This document shows, piece by piece, positions 1,909 through 40,252 of a stretch of 40,252 nucleotides of DNA. The notes beneath the pieces are model-generated. The model was not told where the DNA came from. It saw only the letters and a list, made by a program, of their open reading frames with translations, and ran no database searches. Made by a program: the position numbers and the translations under genes. Position 1 is the stretch's first letter, and every line of letters starts with the position of its first letter. Origin of the DNA: Clostridia bacterium (GTDB taxonomy: Bacteria; Bacillota; Clostridia; Oscillospirales; CAG-272); assembly GCA_017456145.1 (NCBI GenBank), contig JAFTJZ010000032.1, forward strand, positions 1-40,252, read 5' to 3'.

Positions 1909-2697
1909 ATGACCACATCCGATCTCTACCGTGCACTGCGCGAAAAAATCCCTGCCGCAATGGCGTATGAATGGGACAATGACGGCGTGATGTGCCTCCC
2001 CGAGCCAAGCCGCCCCGCCCGTCGGGTGCTGCTGGTGCTGGACATCACTGACGAGGCCGTCGATCACGCCATCCGCAATAACTATGACCTCATCGTCTCG
2101 CATCACCCTCTGATCTTCAAGGGAATCAAGCACCTCACCACCGAGGACATCATCGCCCGCCGCTGCATCAAGCTGTGCCGCTACGGAATCACCGCCCTCT
2201 CCTTTCACACCGCGCTGGATGCCATGGACGGTGTCAACGACCGTCTTGCCGCCGCCCTTGGGCTGACCGATATTACTCCGTTTGGCGATCGGGCGTATCC
2301 CGTCGGGCGCCTCGGCTCACTCCCCGCCCCCATGCCCGCCGAAACGTTCGCTGCGCACGTCGCACAGACGCTGAACTGCACGGCTGTCACCGTGGGGAAT
2401 CCCGAGATCCCCGCATATCGCATTGCCGTGATCGGCGGCTCCGGGGAGGACGATATCCCCGCGGCCATTGCCGCAGGAGCCGATACCATGGTCACGGGCG
2501 AGGCCGGCTACCACGAAATGCTGGACGCCGCCGCTATGGGCTTTGATGTCATCACCGCCGGGCATTTCTTCACCGAGCAGTCCACGCTAGTGATGCTCAA
2601 AGAGCTGCTCGCCTCCATCGACCCCTCCATTCAGTCCGACGTTTATAACACCAACCGCATGCTGACGGTGGTGAGCGCAAGGGGCGTTGCCCTTTGA
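1909..2697 (+). CDS. Nif3-like dinuclear metal centre protein (YqfO family)
   Basis: The 262-residue protein belongs to the NIF3/YqfO family. Characteristic metal-binding segments are visible: YDLIVSHHPLIFKG near residue 60, SFHTALDAMDGVND near residue 98, and a C-terminal GHFFTEQSTL. These supply the His, Asp and Glu ligands of the two-metal site in solved family members. It lacks the extra central domain of longer homologues such as B. subtilis YqfO (about 370 residues). The cellular role is unsettled; GTP cyclohydrolase-like and metal-homeostasis roles have been proposed. It sits directly downstream of trmK and probably shares its transcript. The start has an AAAGGA site upstream. Confidence 0.9.
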   Translation: MTTSDLYRALREKIPAAMAYEWDNDGVMCLPEPSRPARRVLLVLDITDEAVDHAIRNNYDLIVSHHPLIFKGIKHLTTEDIIARRCIKLCRYGITALSFHTALDAMDGVNDRLAAALGLTDITPFGDRAYPVGRLGSLPAPMPAETFAAHVAQTLNCTAVTVGNPEIPAYRIAVIGGSGEDDIPAAIAAGADTMVTGEAGYHEMLDAAAMGFDVITAGHFFTEQSTLVMLKELLASIDPSIQSDVYNTNRMLTVVSARGVAL

Positions 2698-3160
2698 CCC
2701 CACCAAGAACTTTTTGAAAAAAGGTTCTTGGAATTCCAAAAACTTTTGGAAACTTTTCAGCATAATTCATAGCGTTTCTGTTCTGAATAAGCGGGCAGAA
2801 ACGTCCATGTGGAGCCCCTTCCCCACAAGTAAGCTTAAAAGCTTGTTTCGCGTAGGAACGGACAGCCCGAGACCTGTCCCTACAAGTCCAACGTAAAACA
2901 ACTATTCAGACGAGCAGGGCAACCCCTTTGCCCTGCAGATCAAATTCCCGGCTACACAGAGGGCCGCACCGCACAAACAATTTCGATCCCACACGTGCAG
3001 GCAACCGCCAGCGGGGGATCTACAAGGGGGGCTCCCCCTTGTACGCCTTTTCTTTCGCCTATTTCTTTGGGGCGTGCCAAAGAAATAGGCAATAAACCAA
3101 TTATAATTAGAAATCTATATTCGCACAAATTAAATCATCTCCCACGAAAGGAATACCACT
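2698..3160. repeat. Intergenic region with palindromic repeat elements
   Basis: These 463 bases hold no gene. They start with a hairpin pairing CCAAGAAC (2703-2710) with GTTCTTGG (2724-2731) and a TTCCAAAA/TTTTGGAA palindrome close behind. Both are versions of the elements at 32220-32700. Around 2850-2895 lies a GTAGGAAC...GTCCCTAC inverted repeat related to the element at 32763-32912. At 3021-3043 TACAAGGGGG pairs with CCCCCTTGTA over a 3-base loop. At 3057-3090 a perfect 14-bp stem (GCCTATTTCTTTGG and its complement) has a 6-base loop. The first hairpin may terminate trmK-nif3 transcription. Confidence 0.7.
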
Positions 3161-3832
3161 ATGACCTACGTTGTTTCCAACCTCCACGGTTGCTACGAAA
3201 AATTCAAAGAACTGCTCGAGGAAATCCGCTTCCGTGACCGCGACGTCATGTACCTGCTTGGCGATCTGGTCGACTACGGCGACCAGCCTATGGAGCTGAT
3301 TGCTGACATTTCCATGCGCTATAACATCTACCCCATCGCGGGCGAGCACGATTTTACCGCTGTCAAAATGCTCACCGGTATGGATAAGCTCCTCGCCGCA
3401 GGCGAGATGCCCGATGCCGAGTTTGCTGCCGAGCTGACCGACTGGGCAAACCACGGCGGCAAGGTGACGTTGGACGCCTACCGCACCTTGGACGACGACA
3501 TGAAAGAGGGCGTCATCGACTACCTGTGCGATATGGCCTTGTATGAGGAGGTCTCCGTCGGCGGTAAGGAGTATTTCCTGACCCACGCGGGCATCGCCGA
3601 TTTTGACCCCAATACTGACCCCGAAGATTACCAACCCGAGGATTTCACCACCGAGCCCGCCGATTTGGATGGGATCTACTTCCCCGACAAAACGCTGGTG
3701 GTCGGCCATGTCCCCGATCAGAGCGGCAAGATCCGCCGCGGCGAGAACGTCATCGCCATTGATTGCGGCGTTGCCTTCGGCGGCAGACTCGGTTGCTTGT
3801 GCCTGGAAACCGGAGAGGAATTTTATGTCTGA
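3161..3832 (+). CDS. Metallophosphoesterase-fold protein with altered metal-site motifs
   Basis: The 223-residue protein has the layout of the bacterial PPP-type phosphatases. Motif 1 is SNLHG (residues 6-10), motif 2 GDLVDYG (34-40), motif 3 GEHD (61-64), followed by a later THAG and a VGHV. Active enzymes have DxHG, GDxVDRG and GNH(E/D). Here the first metal ligand Asp is Asn7, the phosphate-binding Arg is Tyr39, and the Asn of GNH is Glu62. It is therefore a diverged, possibly inactive or differently specific, relative of serine/threonine or diadenosine tetraphosphatases. An AAAGGA site precedes the ATG. The stop lies 8 bases inside rlmD, so the two genes are translationally linked. Confidence 0.75.
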   Translation: MTYVVSNLHGCYEKFKELLEEIRFRDRDVMYLLGDLVDYGDQPMELIADISMRYNIYPIAGEHDFTAVKMLTGMDKLLAAGEMPDAEFAAELTDWANHGGKVTLDAYRTLDDDMKEGVIDYLCDMALYEEVSVGGKEYFLTHAGIADFDPNTDPEDYQPEDFTTEPADLDGIYFPDKTLVVGHVPDQSGKIRRGENVIAIDCGVAFGGRLGCLCLETGEEFYV

Positions 3833-5246
3833 TCGTAAAACCAAGGGTATGCACAGGTCGGCCGCTCCCATTCAAAAGAACGATATCGTCACACTGCGCA
3901 TTGAGGAGATCAACAACCTCGGCTGCGGCGTGGGTCACCTGCCCGACGGGCGGGTCATGTTCGTGCGCGGCACGGCAACGGGCGACGAATTGACGGCAAA
4001 GGTCATCAAGGTGGCCGGCAGTTATCTGGTCGGTCGCCCCGAGCACTATACGGCCGTCTCCCCCTACCGTACCGATGCCGATTGTCCCGCCTACCCTGCG
4101 TGCGGTGGCTGCGTCTATCGCCATATCACCTACGAGCATGAGCTTGCCATCAAGAAGAATTATGTAAAAAACGCCTTTTGTAAGGCAGGACTTCCCGATG
4201 TGGTCGTCGAAGACGTCCGCACGACAGGGCAAATCGTTTCCTATCGCAATAAAGCACAGTACCCTGTGGGGAACGGTGCAGACGGTATGATCGCCGGCTT
4301 TTACGCCGACCACACCCATCGCATCCTCCCTACCGATCACTGCGCCCTCCAGCCCCCCGTTTTTTCCGAAATCGTCCGCGCCGTCTGCGGTTTTTGCGAT
4401 CGTTACGGCATCCGCGCCTACGATGAGACAAACAGCACGGGGCTTTTGCGCCATATCTATCTGCGGCAGGGTACGCTCAGCGGGCAGGTGCTGCTCTGTC
4501 TTGTTATCTGCGGCGACACGCTGCCTCATGCGAATGCGCTGTGCGACGAGCTGACCGCTGCCTTCCCCGCTCTTGTCGGCATCCTGCTCAATCATAATCT
4601 GAAAAACACCAACGTCGTGCTGGGCGAACGCTACACACGGCTTTATGGAAAGGACACGCTGCGAGACACGCTCTGCACCTTGGAGTTTGATATCGCGCCC
4701 GCCGCCTTTTATCAGGTCAATCACGATGCCGCCGAGCTGCTCTACGGTATCGCCCGCGAGCGCGCCGCACTGACAGGCAAGGAAACGCTGCTCGATCTTT
4801 ACTGCGGCATCGGCACCATCGGCCTTTCCATGGCAGACGGCTGTGCACGCCTTGTCGGCATTGAAATTGTCCCCGAGGCGGTGGAAAACGCCAAGGAAAA
4901 TGCCCGCCGCAACGGCGCGGACAACGCACTCTTTTTCCGGGGCGACGTAGGGGACGACGGCGACGTCTCCTCCCTGCTCTCGCGGGCGGAGGCAGCACTC
5001 GGCACACTGGACGTTGACGTCGCCATCATTGACCCGCCCAGAAAAGGCACAACACCCGCGCTGATCGCCCTGCTCGCCCAGCGGCAGATCAACCGCGTGG
5101 TCTATGTCTCTTGCGACGTCGATACGCTGGCCCGCGACTGCGCGATCTTCCGCCAACACGGCTATGAAATCGGCACCGTTACTCCCGTCGATCTGTTCCC
5201 ACGAACGGGGCACGTTGAAAGTGTCGTTTGTCTCACGAGAAAATGA
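3825..5246 (+). CDS. rlmD: 23S rRNA (uracil-5-)-methyltransferase, RlmD/RumA type
   Basis: The 473-residue protein is a TrmA/RumA-family RNA methyltransferase that makes m5U in 23S rRNA. An N-terminal TRAM domain (LRIEEINNLGCGVGHL) is followed by the 4Fe-4S ligands in CPAYPACGGC, with a further Cys downstream. The C-terminal Rossmann domain has QVNHDAAELL, LYCGIGTIGLS, DPPRKG and VVYVSCD, which includes the catalytic Cys. I chose the ATG at 3825 because GGAGAGG precedes it and family homology starts there; the same frame is open further upstream to 3603. The start overlaps the phosphatase gene by 8 bases. The last codons (HVESVVCLTRK-stop) recur as degenerate copies downstream. The Gram-positive RlmCD type, which modifies two positions, is equally possible. 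Confidence 0.9.
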   Translation: MSDRKTKGMHRSAAPIQKNDIVTLRIEEINNLGCGVGHLPDGRVMFVRGTATGDELTAKVIKVAGSYLVGRPEHYTAVSPYRTDADCPAYPACGGCVYRHITYEHELAIKKNYVKNAFCKAGLPDVVVEDVRTTGQIVSYRNKAQYPVGNGADGMIAGFYADHTHRILPTDHCALQPPVFSEIVRAVCGFCDRYGIRAYDETNSTGLLRHIYLRQGTLSGQVLLCLVICGDTLPHANALCDELTAAFPALVGILLNHNLKNTNVVLGERYTRLYGKDTLRDTLCTLEFDIAPAAFYQVNHDAAELLYGIARERAALTGKETLLDLYCGIGTIGLSMADGCARLVGIEIVPEAVENAKENARRNGADNALFFRGDVGDDGDVSSLLSRAEAALGTLDVDVAIIDPPRKGTTPALIALLAQRQINRVVYVSCDVDTLARDCAIFRQHGYEIGTVTPVDLFPRTGHVESVVCLTRK

Positions 5247-5294
5247 GCAAAACTCAAAAATTCGTTTTACAGTAGTAATGGTTAACATATCGAA
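5211..5294 (+). repeat. rlmD tail and leader: parental copy of the cassette boundary repeat
   Basis: This is the genuine rlmD 3' end (5211-5246, encoding HVESVVCLTRK-stop) plus the leader 5244-5294. Positions 8041-8076 repeat the coding part with 34 of 36 bases identical. Positions 8199-8249 repeat the 51-bp leader with 47 of 51 identical. The helicase start lies 12 bases beyond this copy. Confidence 0.9.
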
Positions 5295-5306
5295 AGGAGT
5301 TGCTGT

Positions 5307-7934
5307 ATGAATAAATTTAAAAATATACAGTTTCGCGGAACGTTCCGCGATTATCAGCAGCGCGTGCTTGATAATGCTGATAAATATTTAAAAGACGGAA
5401 AAATCAATATCGTAGCAGCGCCGGGTAGTGGTAAGACAGTCCTTGGACTTGAGTTGATTCGACGTTTGGGTGCGCCTTGTATCGTTCTTTCTCCTACAAC
5501 GGCAATCCGTCAGCAGTGGGGCGAAAGATTCAAAAATTTATTTCTTGAAAATGAAGACGAATTTTCATCGTTTTTTTCCAATGATCTACACAAAATTAAG
5601 CTTCTCAACTCGGTAACTTATCAATCGTTATACACTGCTATTGAAAAGGTTTCGGTAAATGATGATGGAGATGTTGACTGTTCGGATATTGATATATTTG
5701 CTGAAATAAAAGCGTTTGGAATAAAAACCGTATGTCTTGACGAAGCTCACCATCTGAAAAACGAATGGCAAAAAGCACTTGAAAAATTCATTTCTTCGCT
5801 TGATAAAGACGTGAAAATCATTTCTCTCACAGCCACACCGCCGTATGATTCGGAAGGCGCGGAGTGGAGCAGATATATGAATATCTGCGGCGAGATTGAC
5901 GAAGAAATTTTCGTTTCGGAGCTTGTTGGGCAAAATACGCTCTGTCCACATCAGGACTACATATATTTTAACTACCCAACAGAATCCGAAATTGCAAGCT
6001 TTCAAAACTACAAAGAGTGTGCCGCTCTTGCCGTAGAAGAGCTTGGCAAGCTTGACCTGTTTGCACAGGTGTGTCAGACCTTAAATGCTGAAAAAAATTA
6101 CGAAGTATTATTTTCTGCCGTGAAGGAATATGTTGCGCTTGTCACTTTGCTCCGATATTATGGTTTTGAAATTGATAAAAAGCTAATTCGTGAATTGACC
6201 GCTAAAAGAGGTTTGCCTTTTTTTAAAATGCAGTATGCAGAAACGGCGATTCAATTTTTGCTTGACGGTGAGATAATTACTGATGAGCAAAAGGCAGAAA
6301 TCATTTCCATACTGAGGGATCATTCTGTTTATGAGAAAAAGATGGTAACGCTTGATCTAAACGAGCGTTTGAAAAGAACATTGGTTTCCTCTGTGGGAAA
6401 GCTTGAAAGCATAATGAGTATCGCCAAGAATGAGGTCGCTGCAATGGGTGACCGACTGCGCATGCTTGTTCTGACCGATTATATCAAAAAAGAAAATCTT
6501 TCAAAAATAGCATCGGCAGAGGAATTTAATTCCGTTAACATTGTCAGCATATTTGAAACGCTGCGCCGTGCAAATCTAAATGTGAATATCGGCGTGCTTT
6601 CGGGTACACTCGTTATCCTTCCAAAAGCCATTGACTTGTCTGATATAAAACACAAAAAAGAGGATATCCCAAATACCGATTACTGTACCGTTGAATTTTC
6701 AGGCGCGACCCATCGTAGCGTAGATTATGTCGGAAAACTGTTCGAGCGAGGTGAAATACAAATTCTCGTCGGAACAAAATCGTTACTTGGCGAAGGGTGG
6801 GACTCCCCTTGTATCAATTCGCTGATTCTTGCAAGTTTTGTCGGAAGTCTCGTTTTATCCAACCAAATGCGTGGACGTGCGATACGCATCAACAAAAGCG
6901 ATCCCGAAAAATCGTCTAACATATGGCATCTCGTTACTGTTGAGCCCGAATATTTGTTTAAGAATAAAACAACTGAAAGAATTTCAGCCTACATCAAAGA
7001 AGATTACAAAGAACTTACTTCGTACGACTATGTAATCTTAAAACGCCGTTTTGATTCATTTATGGGGCCAAATTACACAACGGGAACAATTGAAAGCGGA
7101 ATTGAACGAATTACCTTGATTCAGCCGCCCTTCGACAAAAACGGCATTGAGCGTATCAATGAGGAAATGTTAAAGCTATCTGCCAAACGCGTCGAAGTCA
7201 AAAGCAAATGGCACGGTGAAGTAGCAGACGGAAGCTTTGCCGTTGGCGTAGAAACCGATATTCCAAAAGAAGCGAAAGTCCCTGTATTCACCTTTTGGAA
7301 TTTTGCACTTAACTCTATTATAGTAGCGACAGAAATAGCTTTAATGCAACCGCTTGTGAGATTGATTTCAAATAATAATATTCCCTTGACCTTGGGAACG
7401 CTTGCAGTGATGGTGGGATTGTTTATTCTTTTGTACAACGGTATAAAAAAGATGGTGCTGCACTCCAATCCTGCTAATTCTATAAAAACTCTTGGCGTTG
7501 CGGTTTACAAAACTCTTTGCGAATGCGATTTGATATCACCGTCAGCCAAAGTGGAAACAACCGCTCATAGGCAACTATATTTTGTTGCGTTGCATTTGCG
7601 AAACGCCTCAATTCACGATCAAAATATTTTCAATACGGCTATGGCAGAAATGCTGTCGCCCATTGAAAACCCACGCTACATTCTGATTTCAAAAGCAAAA
7701 TTCAAGCGTTACAACTATGAGCTTTCCTTTGCTTGTCCTTTGATCATTGGCAAGAAGAAAGAATACGTAGAGGTGTTGGCAGAAAAATTAAAGAAGACAA
7801 CAGGCAATTTTGAACCTGTGTATACACATCGTGAGGACGGACGGAAGTTAATTCTTAAATGCAGAAAGCACTCGTATATAACCTTTAACGAAAAGGCAAT
7901 GGGAAAGAAATATAAAGTTTCTCACTTTGAGTGA
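5307..7934 (+). CDS. SF2 DEAH-type helicase with two C-terminal transmembrane helices
   Basis: The 875-residue protein begins with an SF2 helicase core. A Q-motif-like FRGTFRDYQQ is followed by Walker A AAPGSGKT (about 38-45), Walker B DEAHH (about 145), motif III TATP (about 175), GEGWDSP and motif VI QMRGRAIR (about 520). A long insert separates the two RecA lobes. Past the core, around residues 660-710, two hydrophobic helices are evident (NSIIVATEIALMQPLVRLI and TLGTLAVMVGLFILLYNGI), then a soluble tail of about 165 residues. A membrane-anchored helicase is uncommon and suggests a defence or envelope-linked nucleic-acid function; that is inference. An AAAGGAG site precedes the ATG. The gene is AT-rich compared with rlmD and is the first one behind the rlmD tail. 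Confidence 0.85.
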   Translation: MNKFKNIQFRGTFRDYQQRVLDNADKYLKDGKINIVAAPGSGKTVLGLELIRRLGAPCIVLSPTTAIRQQWGERFKNLFLENEDEFSSFFSNDLHKIKLLNSVTYQSLYTAIEKVSVNDDGDVDCSDIDIFAEIKAFGIKTVCLDEAHHLKNEWQKALEKFISSLDKDVKIISLTATPPYDSEGAEWSRYMNICGEIDEEIFVSELVGQNTLCPHQDYIYFNYPTESEIASFQNYKECAALAVEELGKLDLFAQVCQTLNAEKNYEVLFSAVKEYVALVTLLRYYGFEIDKKLIRELTAKRGLPFFKMQYAETAIQFLLDGEIITDEQKAEIISILRDHSVYEKKMVTLDLNERLKRTLVSSVGKLESIMSIAKNEVAAMGDRLRMLVLTDYIKKENLSKIASAEEFNSVNIVSIFETLRRANLNVNIGVLSGTLVILPKAIDLSDIKHKKEDIPNTDYCTVEFSGATHRSVDYVGKLFERGEIQILVGTKSLLGEGWDSPCINSLILASFVGSLVLSNQMRGRAIRINKSDPEKSSNIWHLVTVEPEYLFKNKTTERISAYIKEDYKELTSYDYVILKRRFDSFMGPNYTTGTIESGIERITLIQPPFDKNGIERINEEMLKLSAKRVEVKSKWHGEVADGSFAVGVETDIPKEAKVPVFTFWNFALNSIIVATEIALMQPLVRLISNNNIPLTLGTLAVMVGLFILLYNGIKKMVLHSNPANSIKTLGVAVYKTLCECDLISPSAKVETTAHRQLYFVALHLRNASIHDQNIFNTAMAEMLSPIENPRYILISKAKFKRYNYELSFACPLIIGKKKEYVEVLAEKLKKTTGNFEPVYTHREDGRKLILKCRKHSYITFNEKAMGKKYKVSHFE

Positions 7935-8267
7935 TCGTCAAAAATGGGGACAAATGTTACTTTCCACCCCAATAAAATATACCTTTTGCATTTACAACCC
8001 CCGTTTTTAGCAGGGTTTGAGACCTTTTGGAGTCTTGACCCACGTGGAAAGTGTCGTTTGTCTCACGCGAAAATGAGCCAAAATCGGCTTAAAATAGGTG
8101 AAAACGAGCCTTTTTGAGTGGTTTTTGAGGAAAATTTCAAAAAATCAGTGTTCAAAATCAAAAAAGCCCCAATTTTGCGTTGGGACAAATGTTACTTTTG
8201 AGCAAAACTCGAAAGTTCATTTTACAGCAGTAATGGTTAACATATCGAAGAAAAAGGAGCGATGGAT
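7935..8267. repeat. Cassette boundary behind the helicase: rlmD-tail copy plus leader copy
   Basis: No gene is seen in these 333 bases. In order they hold: GGGACAAATGTTACTTT at 7947-7963; a boundary repeat at 7971-8076 ending in codons for HVESVVCLTRK-stop; an AT-rich segment with an AAAATCGGCTT-like stretch; a second GGGACAAATGTTACTTT at 8182-8198; and a 51-bp leader at 8199-8249 that is 92 percent identical to the leader behind rlmD. The segment between the two 17-bp repeats may be an empty or decayed cassette. Confidence 0.85.
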
Positions 8268-8720
8268 ATGAGAAAAATTTTAATTAAATATTATAATCAA
8301 GAACTTCCGGCAATTCTTTTGGCTCGTTTCGATATGGTAGATAATGAATTTGTTTCTGTCAAAGGTTTGTTTGGTAAAATAAAAGATATTTTTACTCCTA
8401 TGAATCGTCAATACTGCTTGGTTTTCATTCCTTGGAAGCATCGAGAAAAAGAGCTTGTTTTGCTTCCTATGAGTGATATAATAACGATTGATAAGCTAAT
8501 AGGTAACGATATCGTTTCGATTGAAAAGTACATTAGCCCTTTCACGGAAGAAGATCCCTATTATGCTGAATACAAGATATCAAATTTTGTCGGCTATAAA
8601 TTTATATACGAATATAAAAATTACATTGCGGACATTAGAAATCAATGCTTTAGGAAACCTCTTGAGATATTGTATCAGCACCACCCCGAACTTTTGCAAG
8701 AGGAGTTTGACGAGGAATAA
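8268..8720 (+). CDS. Hypothetical protein of the rlmD-linked array
   Basis: I do not recognise this 150-residue protein. It looks globular and soluble, rich in Ile, Tyr and Lys, with alternating hydrophobic strands (QYCLVFIPWK, ELVLLPMSDIITI) and an acidic C-terminus ending LLQEEFDEE. No catalytic motif, signal peptide or membrane helix is visible. The ATG at 8268 is 8 bases from an AAAGGAG site; an in-frame ATG at 8262 is only 2 bases from it. Its leader duplicates the one in front of the helicase, and its stop codon lies inside the next boundary repeat. The gene is therefore neatly packed between two repeat copies. Composition is AT-rich like the helicase. Confidence 0.7.
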   Translation: MRKILIKYYNQELPAILLARFDMVDNEFVSVKGLFGKIKDIFTPMNRQYCLVFIPWKHREKELVLLPMSDIITIDKLIGNDIVSIEKYISPFTEEDPYYAEYKISNFVGYKFIYEYKNYIADIRNQCFRKPLEILYQHHPELLQEEFDEE

Positions 8721-8821
8721 AATATACCTTTTGGCTTTACAACCCCCGTTTTTGGCAGGTTTTGAGACCTTTTGGAGTCTTGACCCACGTGGAAAGTGTC
8801 GTTTGTCTGGCGAGGAGGTAA
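8716..8821 (+). repeat. Cassette boundary repeat, copy 2
   Basis: Positions 8716-8812 match 7971-8067 with about four mismatches and no gaps. The copy ends in codons for HVESVVCLARR-stop, again imitating the rlmD C-terminus. The GAGGAGG inside its last codons serves as the ribosome-binding site of the next gene, whose ATG follows four bases after the repeat's stop codon. Confidence 0.85.
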
Positions 8822-8825
8822 CACA

Positions 8826-9293
8826 ATGAAAAAAATAATATCTTCAAGATCTGCTTTAGTGATATGTTCTTTTTCAACTCTTTTGTTTTGGAGTCTTTCG
8901 TTGATCTCGTTTGGACTTGCTGTATCCGGAGAGCCACAAGAGATATGTATAGGACTATTGCTTTTTAGTGTTTGTTTCGGTTTTGGTTGCTTTCTTTTAT
9001 GGTACTTGAATCGAGCAGCTTGTGTTGTTTGGATCAAGGACGGTATGATAAAGTGCAAAGGACTCATATATGGCTTTCATAAAGAATGCGCTGTTCGTGC
9101 CATTCAAACCGTACAAATAAAATATGTTCATCGCGAAGTGGGTTTTGGTACCTTTGTCTACTTGGTAGATGATCGCGCACCATCCTATCAAAAGTTCTTC
9201 CGCATCAGAAAGGATAGTTACATTTGTTTCCGAAAAAACAAGAAAAACTTGGAGTTTCTGCGCTCTTTCTGGTCGGGAGAGGTTGAAAAGTGA
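8826..9293 (+). CDS. Small membrane protein with two N-terminal helices
   Basis: The 155-residue protein starts with a short basic segment and two transmembrane helices (ALVICSFSTLLFWSLSLI and IGLLLFSVCFGFGCFLLW). A soluble part of about 95 residues follows, with beta-strand character (VVWIKDGMIKCKGLIYG). The layout recalls bacterial PH-like membrane proteins, but I see no diagnostic motif, so the name stays descriptive. The ATG at 8826 was preferred to an upstream in-frame ATG at 8796, which lies inside the boundary repeat; GAGGAGG is 8 bases before 8826. It is the third gene of the rlmD-linked array. With the helicase it makes two membrane-anchored proteins out of four. Confidence 0.75.
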   Translation: MKKIISSRSALVICSFSTLLFWSLSLISFGLAVSGEPQEICIGLLLFSVCFGFGCFLLWYLNRAACVVWIKDGMIKCKGLIYGFHKECAVRAIQTVQIKYVHREVGFGTFVYLVDDRAPSYQKFFRIRKDSYICFRKNKKNLEFLRSFWSGEVEK

Positions 9294-9327
9294 GACTTTA
9301 AGATATTACACCCCCCGTTTTCGCCCC

Positions 9328-9386
9328 AAAATATACCTTTTGCTCTTATGCCCCACGCCGATAGTATCGTGTGCTTAACAAAAAGC
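9328..9386 (+). repeat. Cassette boundary repeat, copy 3 (degenerate)
   Basis: AAAATATACCTTTTGC is followed after a short gap by CACGCCGATAGTATCGTGTG. The latter reads HADSIVCLTKS in the rlmD-tail frame but lacks the immediate stop. It misses the roughly 35-bp insert carried by copies 1 and 2, so it is a different lineage of the repeat. An ACACCCCCCGTTTT stretch just upstream resembles part of that insert. Confidence 0.7.
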
Positions 9387-9472
9387 ACAAATCAACTCGT
9401 AGGACAGACTTGCATATACGGTTAGGCAAGCTCGAATTTTTTGATATATTTTACGTCAAAGAGGAGATGCAT

Positions 9473-9961
9473 ATGATTAACCCGAATATCGAAGATTATA
9501 TTTGCAGGGAATTGCTTGTAGATGAACAAAAAGTCGCATTGGATTTCATTGGTTTTTTGAGAGACAACAACCTGGTTTTCTATAAAGATAATTGTGAATG
9601 CTGGAAGAATAAAATATACTATTGGGTGAAATCAGGTGATGAATGTATCTGTTTTATTGCAATAAAAGACCCTGACAAAACAGATAACCATTGGACGGTA
9701 TGGTCAGATGATATGGGGTCAGCGTGGCTCGAACAATCCCCCGTGGATAATGTTATAAAAGAAATTGCTTGGAATCGTATCGACCATTGTGGTCATTGCG
9801 GTTCTTGCGGCGGCGGGCGACACAAAGTTATCTTTGGGAAAGAATTTGATGATGTTTGCGGATGTACCTTTAGAATTGACAATCCCACTTTGAGCGATTT
9901 ATTTTTCCTTAAAAAAATGGTGGAAATAAGACTAAAAGAAATAAATAATCAACAGCAGTGA
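9473..9961 (+). CDS. Hypothetical Cys-rich, probably zinc-binding protein
   Basis: The 162-residue protein has no family I can name with confidence. Its C-terminal half contains HCGHCGSCGGGRHK and a further VCGC, a spacing that suggests a structural zinc site. The N-terminal half reads as a mixed alpha/beta domain (DEQKVALDFIGFLRDNN). It ends in a Lys-rich helix. The ATG at 9473 lies 6 bases from a GAGGAG site; the in-frame ATG at 9467 touches that site and is unlikely. It is the fourth gene of the AT-rich array behind rlmD, between boundary copies 3 and 4. There is no signal peptide or membrane helix. Confidence 0.7.
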   Translation: MINPNIEDYICRELLVDEQKVALDFIGFLRDNNLVFYKDNCECWKNKIYYWVKSGDECICFIAIKDPDKTDNHWTVWSDDMGSAWLEQSPVDNVIKEIAWNRIDHCGHCGSCGGGRHKVIFGKEFDDVCGCTFRIDNPTLSDLFFLKKMVEIRLKEINNQQQ

Positions 9962-10032
9962 TGTGCTTTTAGTTTCATCAATTCCAACAGGTAAAACACT
10001 CCTGTAGATTTTTCGCCTTGTGCCCCGATTTT

Positions 10033-10125
10033 GAATGGAGACAAATAGTAAACAGAAGTATACCTTTTGCCCTCTTGACCCACGCCCGACATATCCGTTT
10101 GTCTTACGCGACAATGGGTCAACTA
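10033..10125 (+). repeat. Cassette boundary repeat, copy 4 (degenerate)
   Basis: GAATGGAGACAAATAGTAAAC resembles the GGGACAAATGTTACTTT motif of copy 1 (a degenerate match). It is followed by GTATACCTTTTGCCCTCTTG and CCCACGCCCGACATATCCG, and then by a stretch reading VCLTRQ in the rlmD-tail frame. This is the last copy. Beyond it the base composition rises toward that of the core genes. Confidence 0.65.
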
Positions 10126-10169
10126 CGGCTAAATAACCGAATCTATTTACGGGAGAACAGGAAAGCACA

Positions 10170-11045
10170 ATGCAATATAACGAAATTAAAACAAAAAATC
10201 AAGGAAAAATTTCAATGGAAAATTACACCGTTAACGTGATCACGTCCTTTGCTGCGTGCGAGGCATATGTCAAGGACTTTTGTGCTGACAACCGCTTTTC
10301 CGCCCCCATGCTTTCCAATGACGAGCAGCTGAAATGCAATCTGATCAAAGCGATTGAAACGTCGGACGAATATGCTGTGATCGGGATATACAAATCACAG
10401 CGTATGGTCGGCCTGTTTTCGTTTCTCACGCTAAAGGACGAAAAATATCTTGAAATGCTGGTCGGTCTTTCTCGCGATGCTGCGGCATACTGCGAGATGC
10501 TTGACTATCTGAAGGCGCATTTCGCCGACTACCGTGCGGATTTCATTTTCAATCCGAACAACGATCTGCTGCTCAGCTGCTTGCGGCAGCGGGGCGCGGA
10601 TTTTGATGCAGAGCAGCAAAAGATGATCTATCGTCATTCCGCGCCCGCTGTGGACACCACGGGCATCGAGCTGCTCGCGGAGCCATATATCCCCGCATAT
10701 CTTGAAATGCATAACACGGATATGTACTGGACGGGTGACAAGGTCATAGAGGCGCGCGACAGATTCCGCACACTTGTAGCTCTGGAGCGCGGGTGTGTCG
10801 TCGGGTACTTGGACGTGACCTATACCTTTGAGGAAAACGAGCCGTTTGACCTGCTGGTAAAGCAAGCATATCGAAGAAAAGGATATGGGCGAAGGCTGCT
10901 GGCAAAGGCACTGGAAATGAACGGCTCCAAAGGGATGATGCTGCTCGTCGACATTGACAATATCGCTGCCATACGCCTATATGAATCCCTGGGCTTTGAG
11001 AAGGCAGAGAATCAGAACAGCCTGGTTGCCCATTTGAAAATCTGA
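10170..11045 (+). CDS. GNAT family N-acetyltransferase
   Basis: The 291-residue product carries a C-terminal GNAT domain with acetyl-CoA-binding motif A (KQAYRRKGYGRRLLAKAL), followed by NIAAIRLYESLGFEKAENQN, the usual end of the fold. The N-terminal 140 residues form a second, degenerate GNAT-like half, as in two-domain members. The substrate is unknown. The ATG at 10170 has AGGAAAG 7 bases upstream. A second ATG at 10215 (276 residues) also has an AGGA and homology may begin there, so the start is uncertain. It begins about 45 bases after the last rlmD-tail copy and could be the final cargo or the old flank. An HD-domain gene follows after 21 bases. Confidence 0.8.
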   Translation: MQYNEIKTKNQGKISMENYTVNVITSFAACEAYVKDFCADNRFSAPMLSNDEQLKCNLIKAIETSDEYAVIGIYKSQRMVGLFSFLTLKDEKYLEMLVGLSRDAAAYCEMLDYLKAHFADYRADFIFNPNNDLLLSCLRQRGADFDAEQQKMIYRHSAPAVDTTGIELLAEPYIPAYLEMHNTDMYWTGDKVIEARDRFRTLVALERGCVVGYLDVTYTFEENEPFDLLVKQAYRRKGYGRRLLAKALEMNGSKGMMLLVDIDNIAAIRLYESLGFEKAENQNSLVAHLKI

Positions 11046-11712: not shown

Positions 11713-12351
11713 ATGGAACGATATACGGAAGCTCGCGGTAATTACCACGTTGCATATTATTCGGTTTTTATAGATCAAGCCATGAAATTGACCGCCTTGG
11801 ATTTTGCCAAAAGAATCATTCTGACGGATAATCAATATTCCAGATTACTGCCGACCGAGGTACGCAATTCCAACAACGTGAGTATGCAGCAAAAAATCGA
11901 AATTCAACGAACCTACATGGGAAAATTAGGCGAAATGGCTTTTTTGAAATTTTTACAGGAAAATCATAAAAATGTAAACACCCGCGGAATGTTTGATGTT
12001 TTTGAAGGGCAGCAGAACGTAGATTCCTTCGATTTTATCACTTCAACCGGAAAATCGGTCGATGTGAAAACAGGTTTCCGCAGCAACCACACACGATTAT
12101 TGGTTCATGTCGATCAGTTTGATCACATTCCCAAGGACTTCTACGTTGCCGTAAAAATTGACGCGCCGGACGTGGATTCCCGAAACAAAATCGTAGACTG
12201 GGACAATCTATCGACCGCCTATATCATAGGCTATGCCGATTACACCTATATGAAACAATATGCCGGCATCCACGACTTTAGTGAAGGCCCCGCCAGATGG
12301 CTGTATTACAACAAGCTGATGGGGATTGATAAATTGTTGCATCTGTTTTGA
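11713..12351 (+). CDS. Putative PD-(D/E)XK nuclease of the restriction-modification island
   Basis: I do not recognise an established family in this 212-residue protein. An all-helical N-terminus leads into GKLGEMAFLKFLQE near residue 75. Then come DSFDFI and KSVDVKTGF near residues 104-120, a D-x(n)-DxK layout typical of PD-(D/E)XK nucleases. It is followed by beta-strand sequence (RLLVHVDQFDHIPKDFYVAVKI), as in that fold. It opens the restriction-modification operon, 41 bases before the adenine methylase, so a restriction endonuclease paired with that enzyme is the simplest reading. The start has a strong AAAGGAGAT site. The family call is inference; presence of a real gene is nearly certain. 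Confidence 0.6.
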   Translation: MERYTEARGNYHVAYYSVFIDQAMKLTALDFAKRIILTDNQYSRLLPTEVRNSNNVSMQQKIEIQRTYMGKLGEMAFLKFLQENHKNVNTRGMFDVFEGQQNVDSFDFITSTGKSVDVKTGFRSNHTRLLVHVDQFDHIPKDFYVAVKIDAPDVDSRNKIVDWDNLSTAYIIGYADYTYMKQYAGIHDFSEGPARWLYYNKLMGIDKLLHLF

Positions 12352-12392
12352 GCGAAAACATTAAACATTGGAAGATTGAGCGGTAAATAACA

Positions 12393-13985
12393 ATGAGTTT
12401 GATCATGAACAAAGCCAAAGAGCTGACGATGCGGTATTTGCTGTCGGAAAGCAAAGCGGATCGTATCTCTCAAGTGCTTACAGAGTTAACCGTCATAACC
12501 GGAGATCCCTTTTGGGATACGGACGTGCACTCTCCCCTTGACTACACATCCGTGCAGGATTCTCTGGCGACGCTGAACGAAAAAGAATATATCCGCAAGC
12601 GCAGAGGCGTCTATTATACGCCGCTTGATGTCGTTGCATTTATTATAGCAAACACCGTAAAAATGCAGCAGGGGCGCATTGATACCGCCACCATCAACGG
12701 GACATTTCCCCCTGACGATTCCATAACGAAAAAAAATGTTTTGGATCCCACCTGCGGGGCGGGCGAATTTTTGCTTGCCTTTCTTGATGCCAAATTCTGC
12801 GGGGTCTCCTCTCCTACCAAAGCATGGGTGAGAGGTGCCGTTCGCACGATCTACGGGAACGACACCAATCCTGAATCCACAACAATTGCCAAGATCCGAT
12901 TACTTCTTTGTGTTTACCATACCTACGGCGACGCATTTACCAACGGCGTGGGCGAGATCCTGAATCGCAATTTTTCTCATCACGATTTCATCGCTCCCGT
13001 AGACAAAGCGGCCTTTGGTCAATATGATTTTATTGTCGGCAATCCACCCTACATAGAGGATTCTAAATGCGAGACCCCTGTCTTTGAGCGGTACGGAAAC
13101 ATCTATTGCAACGTGCTTGACAACGCTGTCCACCTCCTGAAAAAAGGAGGGGTCATGGGATTCATCCTGCCTCTGTCGTACATATCCACGCCGCGGATGT
13201 ATAAAATCCGTGCACGAATGACGCATCGTCTGAAGGAGCAGCTTTTGCTGTCGTATGCCGACCGTCCCGATTGTCTGTTCACGGCGGTTCATCAAAAGCT
13301 GTGTATTCTGATCGGCAAGGAAGGCAGCGGCGGAAGGATTATCACCAGTGGGTATCATTATTGGTATAAAAACGAACGGCCCCGCCTGTTTGACGAGGTC
13401 TTTATCCATGAAAATACCCTTGCCACCGATGAATGTATTCCCAAAATCGGGCTGCCCATTGAGGAGCGGATTTTTCACAAAATAGTTCAGCAGCCGCATA
13501 CATTGTCCGCACTCATCGGCGGCAATGGCTACAGCGTCTACCTGAATATGCGTGCCTGCTTTTGGATCAAGGCATTCACAGCGCCTCATGTCGGGGCTGA
13601 ATATAAAGAATACGGGTGTAACAGTGCTTGGGAACAGCAGTATGCTGCGGGCATTTTGAATTGCTCCCTGTTTTGGTGGTATTGGGTCAGCGTATCCGAT
13701 TGCTGGCACATTACGAAAAAAGAGCTCAAGGGATTCAAGGTTCCCCCTGTACCGATCGACCCCGCACTCACCAAGCAGGTACAACAGCTGGAGCACAAGC
13801 TGGAGCTGACGAAAAAATACGTCGGAACAAAGCAGACCGACTATGAGTACAAGCATAAAAGCTGCCTGCCCGAGATCGAGTCGCTCGACAAAACGATCAA
13901 CGCTCTGTATGGGCTGACCGAAGAGGAATCGGCATATATCATTGACTTTGCCAAAAAATATCGCACAGGAGGAACAGCAGAATGA
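12393..13985 (+). CDS. N6-adenine-specific DNA methyltransferase (Eco57I/TaqI-like)
   Basis: The 530-residue protein is a gamma-type amino-methyltransferase. SAM-binding motif I is VLDPTCGAGEF near residue 116, and the catalytic motif IV is NPPY near residue 216. A C-terminal region of about 250 residues would hold the target-recognition domain. It should modify adenine at N6 at the site cut by a partner nuclease of the island. A weak ribosome-binding site precedes the ATG; ATG 12405 is an alternative. The last codons overlap the cytosine methylase start by 4 bases (ATGA). Without a fused nuclease domain it is methylase-only, unlike type IIG enzymes. Confidence 0.85.
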   Translation: MSLIMNKAKELTMRYLLSESKADRISQVLTELTVITGDPFWDTDVHSPLDYTSVQDSLATLNEKEYIRKRRGVYYTPLDVVAFIIANTVKMQQGRIDTATINGTFPPDDSITKKNVLDPTCGAGEFLLAFLDAKFCGVSSPTKAWVRGAVRTIYGNDTNPESTTIAKIRLLLCVYHTYGDAFTNGVGEILNRNFSHHDFIAPVDKAAFGQYDFIVGNPPYIEDSKCETPVFERYGNIYCNVLDNAVHLLKKGGVMGFILPLSYISTPRMYKIRARMTHRLKEQLLLSYADRPDCLFTAVHQKLCILIGKEGSGGRIITSGYHYWYKNERPRLFDEVFIHENTLATDECIPKIGLPIEERIFHKIVQQPHTLSALIGGNGYSVYLNMRACFWIKAFTAPHVGAEYKEYGCNSAWEQQYAAGILNCSLFWWYWVSVSDCWHITKKELKGFKVPPVPIDPALTKQVQQLEHKLELTKKYVGTKQTDYEYKHKSCLPEIESLDKTINALYGLTEEESAYIIDFAKKYRTGGTAE

Positions 13986-15097
13986 GCAGCTACAGAATCA
14001 TCGACCTGTTTTCAGGGTGCGGCGGTTTATCAACCGGCTTTGTGCAAAACGGATGTTCGGTTGAAAAAGCACTGGAATATGACCCGATGATCGCCTCTAC
14101 CTATCAGGTCAATCACCCCGATGTCCCCATGATCATCGATGACATCAAAAACGTAGGACTATCCGATGCTTTTGCGGATTGTGCCGCAGAGGTCATCATC
14201 GGCGGCCCCCCGTGTCAGGGATTTTCCATGGCGGGTGCCCGCATACGCTCGGGATTTATCGACGACCCCCGCAACTATCTTTTCAAGCATTATTTCAATG
14301 TTGTCAAGACCGTCAAGCCCAAGGTGTTCGTCATGGAAAATGTCAAAGGGATCATGACCATGCAAAACGGGCAGATATTCCAAGAAATTCTGCGAATTTT
14401 TTCCTCCCCGGAGCTGCTTGGCGATCAGCCGTACAAAATGTGGTACAAGCTGATCAAAGCCGTGGACTTCGGTGTTCCGCAGCAAAGAGAGCGAATGATC
14501 CTCATCGGAACCAGACTTGAAAACGCGGATATAGATCGCTTATGGGCACTGACACGTGAGGAGATACAAAGAGACGTTCCTTCCTTTTTCGACAAGGTAA
14601 CGGTATATGATGCCATATCCGATCTCCCGCCCCCCAATGCAAGCGGATTGGTTCCAACGCCTGTCCCCATGACGCCATATCAACAGTATCTGGCAGCAAG
14701 CAGCGACGTATTGACCAACCACACCCTGCCTCACCATGAGCAGCACGCAATCGAACGGATGCGCAGAGTAAAGAGCGGCGAGAATTATACCGTGCTCAAC
14801 GAAGACATTAAATCCGTTCACAGCGGCTCTTACGGTCGGCTGTCCTGGGACGAGCCCTCCCGGACGGTGACCACCCGTTTTGATACCCCTTCGGGCGGCA
14901 GATTCATTCATCCGACCGAAAACAGGACCCTGACACCAAGAGAGGCGGCGAGACTGCAGAGCTTCCCGGACAGCTATGTCTTCCGGGGGAACAAGAGCTC
15001 CATCTGCAGGCAAATCGGCAATGCCGTGCCGCCAAAGATCTCTTACTTTTTGGCTCGTCTGGTCGAAAAAATTTTAACCACGGAGGATCAAGGATGA
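13982..15097 (+). CDS. DNA (cytosine-5-)-methyltransferase
   Basis: The 371-residue protein shows the ordered motifs of C5 methylases: motif I DLFSGCGGLSTGF (about 8-20), catalytic motif IV GGPPCQGFS (about 73), motif VI MENVKG, motif VIII QQRERMILIG (about 166), motif IX LTPREAARLQSFPD (about 317) and motif X IGNAVPP (about 344). The variable target-recognition domain lies between VIII and IX. It protects the site of the downstream McrB/LlaJI-type nuclease pair, judging by operon order. Start and stop overlap both neighbours by 4 bases, indicating translational coupling. The enzyme looks intact. Confidence 0.93.
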   Translation: MSSYRIIDLFSGCGGLSTGFVQNGCSVEKALEYDPMIASTYQVNHPDVPMIIDDIKNVGLSDAFADCAAEVIIGGPPCQGFSMAGARIRSGFIDDPRNYLFKHYFNVVKTVKPKVFVMENVKGIMTMQNGQIFQEILRIFSSPELLGDQPYKMWYKLIKAVDFGVPQQRERMILIGTRLENADIDRLWALTREEIQRDVPSFFDKVTVYDAISDLPPPNASGLVPTPVPMTPYQQYLAASSDVLTNHTLPHHEQHAIERMRRVKSGENYTVLNEDIKSVHSGSYGRLSWDEPSRTVTTRFDTPSGGRFIHPTENRTLTPREAARLQSFPDSYVFRGNKSSICRQIGNAVPPKISYFLARLVEKILTTEDQG

Positions 15098-32224: not shown

Positions 32225-32700
32225 CTTTGCCCCTTGGATCCCCACCAGAAACCTTTTTGAAAAAAGGTTTCTGGACTTCCAAAAACTTTTGGTGAATTTT
32301 TGATTGAATTTTTTGCGGTTCTGTTCTATCGTTGCGGCTCGATCATCCTTGTGGGGTCCCTGCCCCACATGGTTGCGATGCCTCCGGCGGGCAGGGCGCT
32401 GCCCTGCACCTGCCAAAGAACCTTTTGATAAAAGGTTCTTTGGGATCTCCAAAACCTTTTATGATTTTATTGCTTAATTTGTAACGGTTCTGTTCTATCG
32501 TTGCGGTTCGATTGTCCTTGCGGGGCCCCTGCCCCACATGGTTGCGATGCCTCCGGCGGGCAGGCCGCTGCCCTGCACCTGCCAAAGAACCTTTTGATAA
32601 AAGGTTCTTTGGAATCTCCAAAACCTTTTATGAATTTATTGCTTAATTTGTAACGGTTCTGTTCTATCGCTGCGGTTCGATTGTCCTTGCGGGGCCCCTA
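32225..32700. repeat. 169-bp tandem repeat with internal hairpins
   Basis: Units start at 32340, 32509 and 32678 (partial), exactly 169 bp apart and nearly identical. A shorter related half-unit starts near 32225. Each unit contains CCTGCCCCACATGGTTGCGA, CTCCGGCGGGCAGG, an AAAGAACCTTTT/AAAAGGTTCTTT hairpin, CCAAAACCTTTTATGA and GTAACGGTTCTGTTCTATCG. The element at 2703-2800 is a diverged single copy. No protein-coding potential is evident. The two full copies probably arose by recent unequal duplication. Confidence 0.85.
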
Positions 32701-32762
32701 CCCCACATGGTAAGCACAACCATATTGTCCGGCTGTGCACAAACAAAATCTTCTTCGATGAC

Positions 32763-40032: not shown

Positions 40033-40252
40033 GCGAGGGGAAGTTGGGGCGTTGCCCCAAGCCCCACTTAAGGCGCTTTTTCGAGAAAAAGCGCCTTAAG
40101 AATCCGCAAAAAGCTTGAAATAGGGGGTAATCCTGTTTTATAAAGTTTTTGGAAGGAAGCGCGAGGGAAGTTGGGGCGTTGCCCCAAGCCCCACTTAAGG
40201 CGCTTTTTCGAGAAAAAGCGCCTTAAGAATCCGCAAAAAGCTTGAAATAGGG
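40033..40252. repeat. Direct repeat of about 128-bp period at the window end
   Basis: Two near-identical blocks start at 40033 and 40161. Each holds AGTTGGGGCGTTGCCCCAAG, then a 16-bp perfect stem CTTAAGGCGCTTTTTC with its complement (40067-40100 in the first copy), then AATCCGCAAAAAGCTTGAAA. The second copy is cut by the window end. The first hairpin could end the SGNH gene transcript. Confidence 0.85.

Follow-up and report, generated by a model that had tools for sequence, protein, structure and literature searches.

The rlmD gene in the 40,252-nt stretch of Clostridia DNA analysed here (the window) is followed by four AT-rich single-gene units, which lie between rlmD and an acetyltransferase gene and are each closed by a repeat carrying a copy of the rlmD 3' end. 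We interpret this array, together with its counterparts in other genomes, as the product of serial integration of single-gene, non-autonomous cassettes at the rlmD 3' end, with a putative serine recombinase acting in trans, and assign this explanation as a whole a probability of about three in four. The units, their shared ends, their occurrence in distantly related hosts, the exchange of rlmD tails and the linkage to a recombinase gene are apparent from sequence comparison.

Organization of the rlmD locus

In the window, rlmD ends at position 5246 with the peptide HVESVVCLTRK and a stop codon, and further copies of this tail begin at 8041, 8786, 9354 and 10081, in agreement with the original prediction (Table 1). 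The copy at 8041 is identical to the rlmD tail at 34 of 36 bases, with peptide and stop unchanged, those at 8786 and 9354 encode HVESVVCLARR-stop and HADSIVCLTKS, respectively, and the copy at 10081 is degenerate. The near-identity previously noted for the two full copies was also borne out, with 96% identity between the 93-nt stretches 7971-8063 and 8716-8808. The repeat itself, initially put at about 100 bp, is considerably longer: full copies comprise about 280 nt, in which a right arm precedes the rlmD tail and a spacer of variable size separates the tail from a 56-nt leader (Lft), which ends in the ribosome-binding site of the cargo gene. The right arm begins at or near the stop codon of the preceding cargo gene and contains ATACCTTTTGG or a variant twice in many copies, and the tail part of the repeat corresponds to the rlmD tail (CACGTNGA...). 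The first leader of the window follows directly on the true rlmD tail, and a leader search at the repeat 8716..8817 gave no match before cargo 3. Cargo genes had been predicted to start 5 to 100 bases past a copy, but the second gene is located about 190 bases after its copy.

Table 1. Coordinates of rlmD and of the array parts in the window.
Feature	Position	Strand	Remarks
rlmD (rumA), 23S rRNA uracil-C5 methyltransferase, target gene	3825..5246	+	Pfam tRNA_U5-meth_tr, TRAM
rlmD 3' end, proximal attachment site	5211..5246	+	left half host, right half element-type tail
Unit 1 leader (Lft)	5244..5300	+	ribosome-binding site at end; HMM 57 bits
Cargo 1, 875-aa superfamily-2 helicase	5307..7934	+	ResIII E 1.5e-18
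Full repeat copy, right arm and element-type rlmD tail	7971..8077	+	tail from 8041
Unit 2 leader (Lft)	8197..8251	+	59 bits
Cargo 2, 150 aa	8268..8720	+	no family match; stop TAA overlaps next repeat
Full repeat copy	8716..8817	+	tail from 8786; runs into cargo 3 ribosome-binding site
Cargo 3, 155 aa	8826..9293	+	hydrophobic stretches by eye; cluster 1 relatives in other arrays
Divergent repeat copy, GAGACTTTAAG form	9292..9381	+	tail from 9354; 60 bits
Cargo 4, 164-aa Cys-rich protein	9467..9961	+	no family match
Distal repeat, degenerate tail	9992..10116	+	tail from 10081; 32 bits (38 bits for 9995-10111)
Right flank, GNAT acetyltransferase	10170..11045	+	taken as chromosomal

The GC content falls from 0.56-0.60 (positions 2000-4999) to 0.36-0.44 (5000-9999). 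The crossover at the rlmD 3' end would lie near CACGTTGA, and the distal tail at 10081, which differs from the element tail at 15 of 21 positions, may represent the original rlmD end, displaced and decayed. A protein 85.6% identical to the window helicase is encoded by the first unit of an array in G040, which belongs to a genus (g36) other than that of the window host. A chance repeat was rejected, with a repeat-derived pattern matching twice in the window and in none of 100 dinucleotide shuffles, and a structural RNA family was dismissed after Rfam gave no match at E 0.5 in 5150-10250. In the 117 contigs of the host genome (BLAST, E 10), the repeat was found nowhere outside this locus except for a 22-nt match (E 1.78), and scattering of the repeat far from rlmD, named beforehand as contrary to a cassette interpretation, is thus not seen in this genome.

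Adjoining the array, 11713-15097 encodes a 212-aa protein, an Eco57I-like methylase and a cytosine methylase, and is probably a restriction-modification locus. A 169-nt unit occurs three times in tandem at 32250-32756 (the later copies 82% and 61% identical to the first), and 40038-40252 contains a pair of identical 88-nt copies with a long palindrome inside.

Architecture and cargo of the units

From 53 loci (seven duplicate loci dropped) 95 units were cut, of which 94 were counted and one, an artefact of negative length, was left out; none of the loci that supplied the 95 units carries the repeat on the opposite strand. The units have a median length of 728 nt. A single cargo ORF is present in 71 of the 94 units, two in 12, three in 2 and none in 9, counting ORFs of at least 70 aa and leaving out those for S23 and GIY-YIG proteins. 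The cargo stop codon is located no more than 10 nt from the start of the right repeat in 52 of the 69 scorable units, and the leader was matched in 52 of the 94 units and not in the other 42.

These figures bear on the alternative that the units are worn remnants of larger rlmD-integrated elements (ICEs/IMEs), i.e., CIMEs, and the arrays piles of such remnants. PMC5704250 describes how decayed elements accumulate in tandem, and a recombinase-bearing element does occur at rlmD in G045. Furthermore, the units share with CIMEs att-type flanks and the lack of integrase and transfer genes: no serine integrase is encoded among the window cargo, and no transfer genes were found among the cargo or spacer ORFs scanned elsewhere (18 of 119). 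However, the compactness of the units, most of them with one gene whose stop codon abuts the repeat, and the leader shared by 52 of the 94 do not resemble independently eroded remnants, and one minimal unit recurs across hosts with very different RlmD proteins, for which independent decay is an unlikely source. We consider accretion of decayed elements quite improbable and favor discrete single-gene cassettes.

The 119 cargo-size ORFs form 67 clusters, of which 46 are singletons and 21 have at least two members. The 18 proteins scanned outside the window are mixed, several of them metabolic and many without a family, and include a peptidase, an amidotransferase, a phosphodiesterase and a serine hydrolase (PF00144); the remainder contain domains of unknown function or lack a match. 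A role of the cargo in defence, as originally suggested, was not sustained: in the window, PADLOC returned only weak matches for the helicase (E 0.003 or worse) and none for the other three genes, and the 18 proteins from elsewhere are of mixed kinds, as noted above. The window helicase had no match among the viral contigs searched, and an origin of the repeat in phage, plasmid or virus collections was likewise rejected, as it matched no phages, plasmids or viral contigs in the collections searched.

Several additional features of the tails and spacers were observed. A long ungapped hairpin between the tail and the DNA behind it is present at 14 of 151 tails compared with 13 of 3020 shuffles. 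At these 14, an inverted copy of the tail follows and the versions change on both arms, so that the tail constitutes one hairpin arm. An attC-like, hairpin-folding site was considered as a general rule, but 137 of the 151 tails fail this test, which is ungapped and misses bulged hairpins. The spacers between tail and leader often contain palindromic elements (e.g., L034:2882-3140, L048 and L100:4421-4792), some of which include a small ORF for a four-helix-bundle (S23, PF05635), GIY-YIG or DUF559 protein. A second type of tail (ESVVCLSREKADDYI...) is located behind rlmD in L228 (G005) and L229 (G098) and is followed in both by nearly the same 96-aa protein, possibly representing another cassette family at the rlmD site.

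Distribution of the repeat

A repeat HMM built from 53 copies matched 102 of 395 genomes of the host family, including that of the window, and 27 of its 71 genera. In the order, 18 of 394 genomes contain the repeat, seven of these from other families. BLAST with one repeat copy matched 13 of 97 genomes, again including the window's own, and the exact repeat pattern was found in 73 stretches of a collection of 84,980 species genomes. A ruminant sample is named in the titles of 54 of these 73, 18 are 'SIG' metagenome-assembled genomes with no host in the title, and one, from Clostridium polyendosporum, has no HMM repeat match. The array carriers are uncultured Clostridia, many from the guts of sheep, goat and deer.

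After removal of seven duplicates, 79 repeat loci were obtained. The repeat lies within 4 kb behind rlmD, on the same strand, in 32 of the 34 loci whose stretch holds the rlmD 3' end. The fetched stretches of the other 45 do not include an rlmD end; two of these 45 begin at a recombinase gene instead.

Movement of units and exchange of rlmD tails

The strongest evidence for movement of the units is provided by the cluster 2 gene (163 aa), which is 90-98% identical at the DNA level in all 15 pairs of six loci, two of them from known genera (g37 and g3), whereas the RlmD proteins of the five loci that show rlmD share only 40-57% identity. In the six pairs profiled, identity amounts to 87-97% over the last 30 nt before the gene, i.e., the end of the leader, to 73-93% over the initial 30 nt of the repeat, and to 10-53% in 30-nt windows downstream of the tail. 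On the upstream side, similarity stops at the leader or in the spacer, with the whole spacer covered in one of the six pairs. One unit thus recurs among hosts with divergent RlmD and unrelated downstream flanks, as anticipated by the proposal of serial integration at the rlmD 3' end.

Differences between sister species point in the same direction. Of the 21 genomes of genus g37, 17 yielded an rlmD gene, and 15 of the 17 rlmD ends are of the element type as judged by eye; of the others, one is natural-looking and one carries a long extension. Among the 12 g37 genomes with at least 600 nt behind rlmD, at least 500 nt of this region are common to only one of the 66 species pairs. A fixed gene order in relatives, which would speak against cassettes, was not observed.

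Among the best 30 of 51 rlmD matches in the family, seven of the eight genes with a repeat or leader match end in ESVVCLT, and of the 22 without such a match two end in ESVVCLS and the rest differ. No more than 3 mismatches to the element tail over 21 positions were counted in 26 of the 32 first tails, in 48 of the 59 internal ones and in 24 of the 45 last ones, the last tails being more distant from the element tail than first and internal tails combined (Mann-Whitney P 1.6e-5). The tails were picked via the repeat HMM, which favors element-like tails, so that this comparison is conservative for last tails; some of these may also not mark the true array end, as units without a recognisable repeat can follow. 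Several last tails (HVETLVVLGRK-stop, HVETVVNLSKI-stop and HVETIVCLNKK-stop) resemble natural ends of RlmD and follow a right arm of the element type. This pattern, as judged by sequence comparison, is the expected footprint of site-specific integration with a crossover near CACGTNGA, which would join the host left half to the element tail at rlmD and, where the array ends, the element right arm to the tail that the host gene had originally. The rlmD 3' ends have thus been exchanged in the manner of ICEs with serine integrases at rumA/rlmD. In G029, which lacks a repeat match, rlmD is followed by a ROK kinase-like gene (by eye), and a related gene (66% in DNA) is located behind the array in G041.

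Homologous recombination between the repeats of about 280 nt following DNA uptake or conjugation, with no site-specific cassette recombinase at work today, would also exchange units. Similarity of the repeats between arrays is about 72-96%, the upstream spacer moves along with the gene in some pairs, and no dedicated recombinase is common to the array genomes tested, all of which this explanation would accommodate. It leaves unexplained, however, how units enter rlmD via a short shared core, why distal tails look natural and why arrays also start from the 3' end of a recombinase gene. We consider it unlikely, and retain site-specific integration of cassettes as the preferred explanation.

A candidate recombinase

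The original prediction had described the array as devoid of a recombinase, which is accurate for the window units, yet five genomes have a large serine recombinase gene immediately ahead of an array. It had also suggested a search for a recombinase with the tail in its own flank, and such a gene was indeed found: the 3' end of the large serine recombinase gene is the same site. The recombinase (558-590 aa) contains Resolvase, Recombinase and zinc-ribbon domains and ends in ...TQVESLVCLTRK or kin. Its NCBIfam scores for CcrB, CcrC and CcrA (205, 157 and 123 bits) remain below the respective cut-offs of 900, 900 and 700. Based on its position and its 3' end, we regard it as the likely cassette recombinase.

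An ORF scan of the collected loci, with models made from recombinases of these genomes, identified large serine recombinases in three genomes, two of which (G258, locus L116, and G252, locus L083) have the recombinase gene directly before the array, its last codons forming the site (...DNDTQVESLVCLTRK-stop and ...DNDTQVETIVCLCKQ-stop). A different serine recombinase of 386 aa, without a zinc-ribbon match, is encoded behind rlmD and a leader at L291:3905-5062 (G306); its 3' end is unrelated and not linked to the site.

At E 1e-60, homologs of the recombinase are present in 12 of the 395 family genomes. Five of these 12 also have the repeat, which in every case follows the recombinase gene on the same strand, at a distance of 0.9-2.5 kb from its 3' end. 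The repeat occurs in 5 of 12 genomes with the recombinase compared with 97 of 383 without it. As the recombinase was found in 12 and the arrays in 102 of 395 genomes, co-occurrence within genomes therefore provides no strong link; the link is one of position. The 26 nt left of the crossover are considerably more alike between 52 repeats and 10 recombinase genes (-0.98, one of the ten being mis-anchored) than in 200 column permutations (mean -8.58, maximum -2.71), and both rlmD (-4.82) and two distant recombinases (-4.57) are less alike to the repeats. The host genome of the window encodes no recombinase homolog at E 1e-60, and none of the six serine recombinases seen in it ends in the tail.

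In G045, rlmD is occupied by an element of about 13 kb; a long C-terminal extension of RlmD marks the near end of this element, and the recombinase is encoded at its far end. Such an extension occurs in seven of nine recombinase genomes examined (of the 12), and is absent from G258 and G293. In G293, rlmD carries the array tail followed by a leader, and the recombinase gene is broken. The extension comprises about 90 residues (HVETVCLLSKLN...GIIERENYNKPKSEDAKQPQCPP... or a relative) in G389, G252, G192, G031, G045, G057 and G186, and is probably the footprint of a serine-recombinase element integrated at rlmD.

A chromosomal Xer-like tyrosine recombinase might alternatively mobilise the cassettes. 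It is the sole PF00589 protein common to the seven array genomes first tested (by eye), and the array genome G102 has no other PF00589 match. A search for a dedicated tyrosine recombinase likewise yielded none but this Xer-like protein common to the array genomes tested. On the other hand, it also occurs in genomes without a repeat match (e.g., G005, G022 and G044), and no scanned array locus lies beside it; a tyrosine recombinase next to an array, as in integrons, was not seen in the loci scanned, where the only one found is that of L298, a locus fetched for this gene. Mobilisation by Xer appears very improbable to us, and the large serine recombinase remains the candidate enzyme.

Proposed mechanism and comparison with known systems

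A full cassette would consist of an element-type rlmD tail, a spacer, a leader with a ribosome-binding site, one gene and a right arm. We propose that a large serine recombinase of the rumA/rlmD-targeting type, whose own gene also ends in this site, recombines the right-arm/tail site of a circular cassette with the rlmD tail, the right arm and element tail forming the cassette site and the rlmD end the target. Action of this enzyme on the cassettes, their excision, circular intermediates and tandem growth would all be parts of this model. Because the element tail encodes an RlmD end and is similar to the natural target, further insertions may remain possible after the first, and arrays may grow. 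Tandem growth requires a site that remains active after integration, which ordinary serine integrases do not provide unless a helper factor is present. The recombinase, usually absent from the array genomes, could act in trans when delivered by elements that pass through rlmD. Cassettes are also located at the far end of the recombinase element, giving rise to integron-like arrays behind the recombinase gene. The copy of the RlmD C-terminus in each cassette would keep the host gene unbroken by the insertion.

RlmH, like RlmD, is a ribosomal RNA methyltransferase. In PMC6222049, where the rlmH product is called a tRNA methyltransferase, SCC and ECC elements are likewise described as entering the 3' region of a methyltransferase gene (rlmH) by means of large serine recombinases (CcrAB), and some strains have more than one att site. 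ECC elements have a size of 21-78 kb with ccr aboard according to that source, whereas the units described here have a median length of only 728 nt and are inserted at rlmD and not at rlmH. According to PMC4701971, streptococcal ICEs that encode a single serine integrase enter rumA (rlmD) in such a way that rumA and the integrase gene swap their 3' parts, in line with the original statement that some streptococcal conjugative elements integrate at the rlmD/rum 3' end. The target gene and the reciprocal exchange of 3' parts are thus common to both systems, but the streptococcal ICEs and IMEs are large and autonomous, in contrast to the integrase-free one-gene units described here, which are arrayed and have a common right arm and often a common leader. 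CIMEs, as described in PMC5704250, are also non-autonomous, att-ended units that pile up at one site; they are decayed ICEs or IMEs, whereas the present units are compact and recur in one form.

The arrays described here consist of exchangeable one-gene cassettes in one orientation. Integrons, the textbook single-gene cassette system, and CALINs (clusters of attC sites without an integrase) likewise line up single-gene cassettes, oriented alike, next to a fixed site, with or without an adjacent integrase, and most arrays found here resemble CALINs in lacking a recombinase. However, integrons employ a tyrosine recombinase and folded attC sites, whereas the recombinase linked here is of the serine type and the site encodes protein. 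Single-gene cassettes at rlmD were not named in the open-access PMC titles and abstract openings searched. The system appears integron-like in its collection of genes and probably depends on a different (serine) recombinase. With somewhat less confidence than in the cassettes as such, we favor the broader view that it is a serine-recombinase counterpart of the integron, which would capture, store and shuffle one-gene cassettes, each carrying the RlmD C-terminus, at two platforms, namely the 3' ends of rlmD and of the recombinase's own gene.

The serial insertion at one site could potentially be developed into a serine-integrase tool for stacking genes. The birth of cassettes would become amenable to testing, as the cargo stop codon is often part of the repeat. 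If the proposed explanation is correct, the arrays would open up a store of small unknown genes (46 of the 67 cargo clusters being singletons), and a serine recombinase with a coding attachment site would constitute a second solution for collecting single genes in gut Firmicutes, such that cassette arrays would have arisen more than once.
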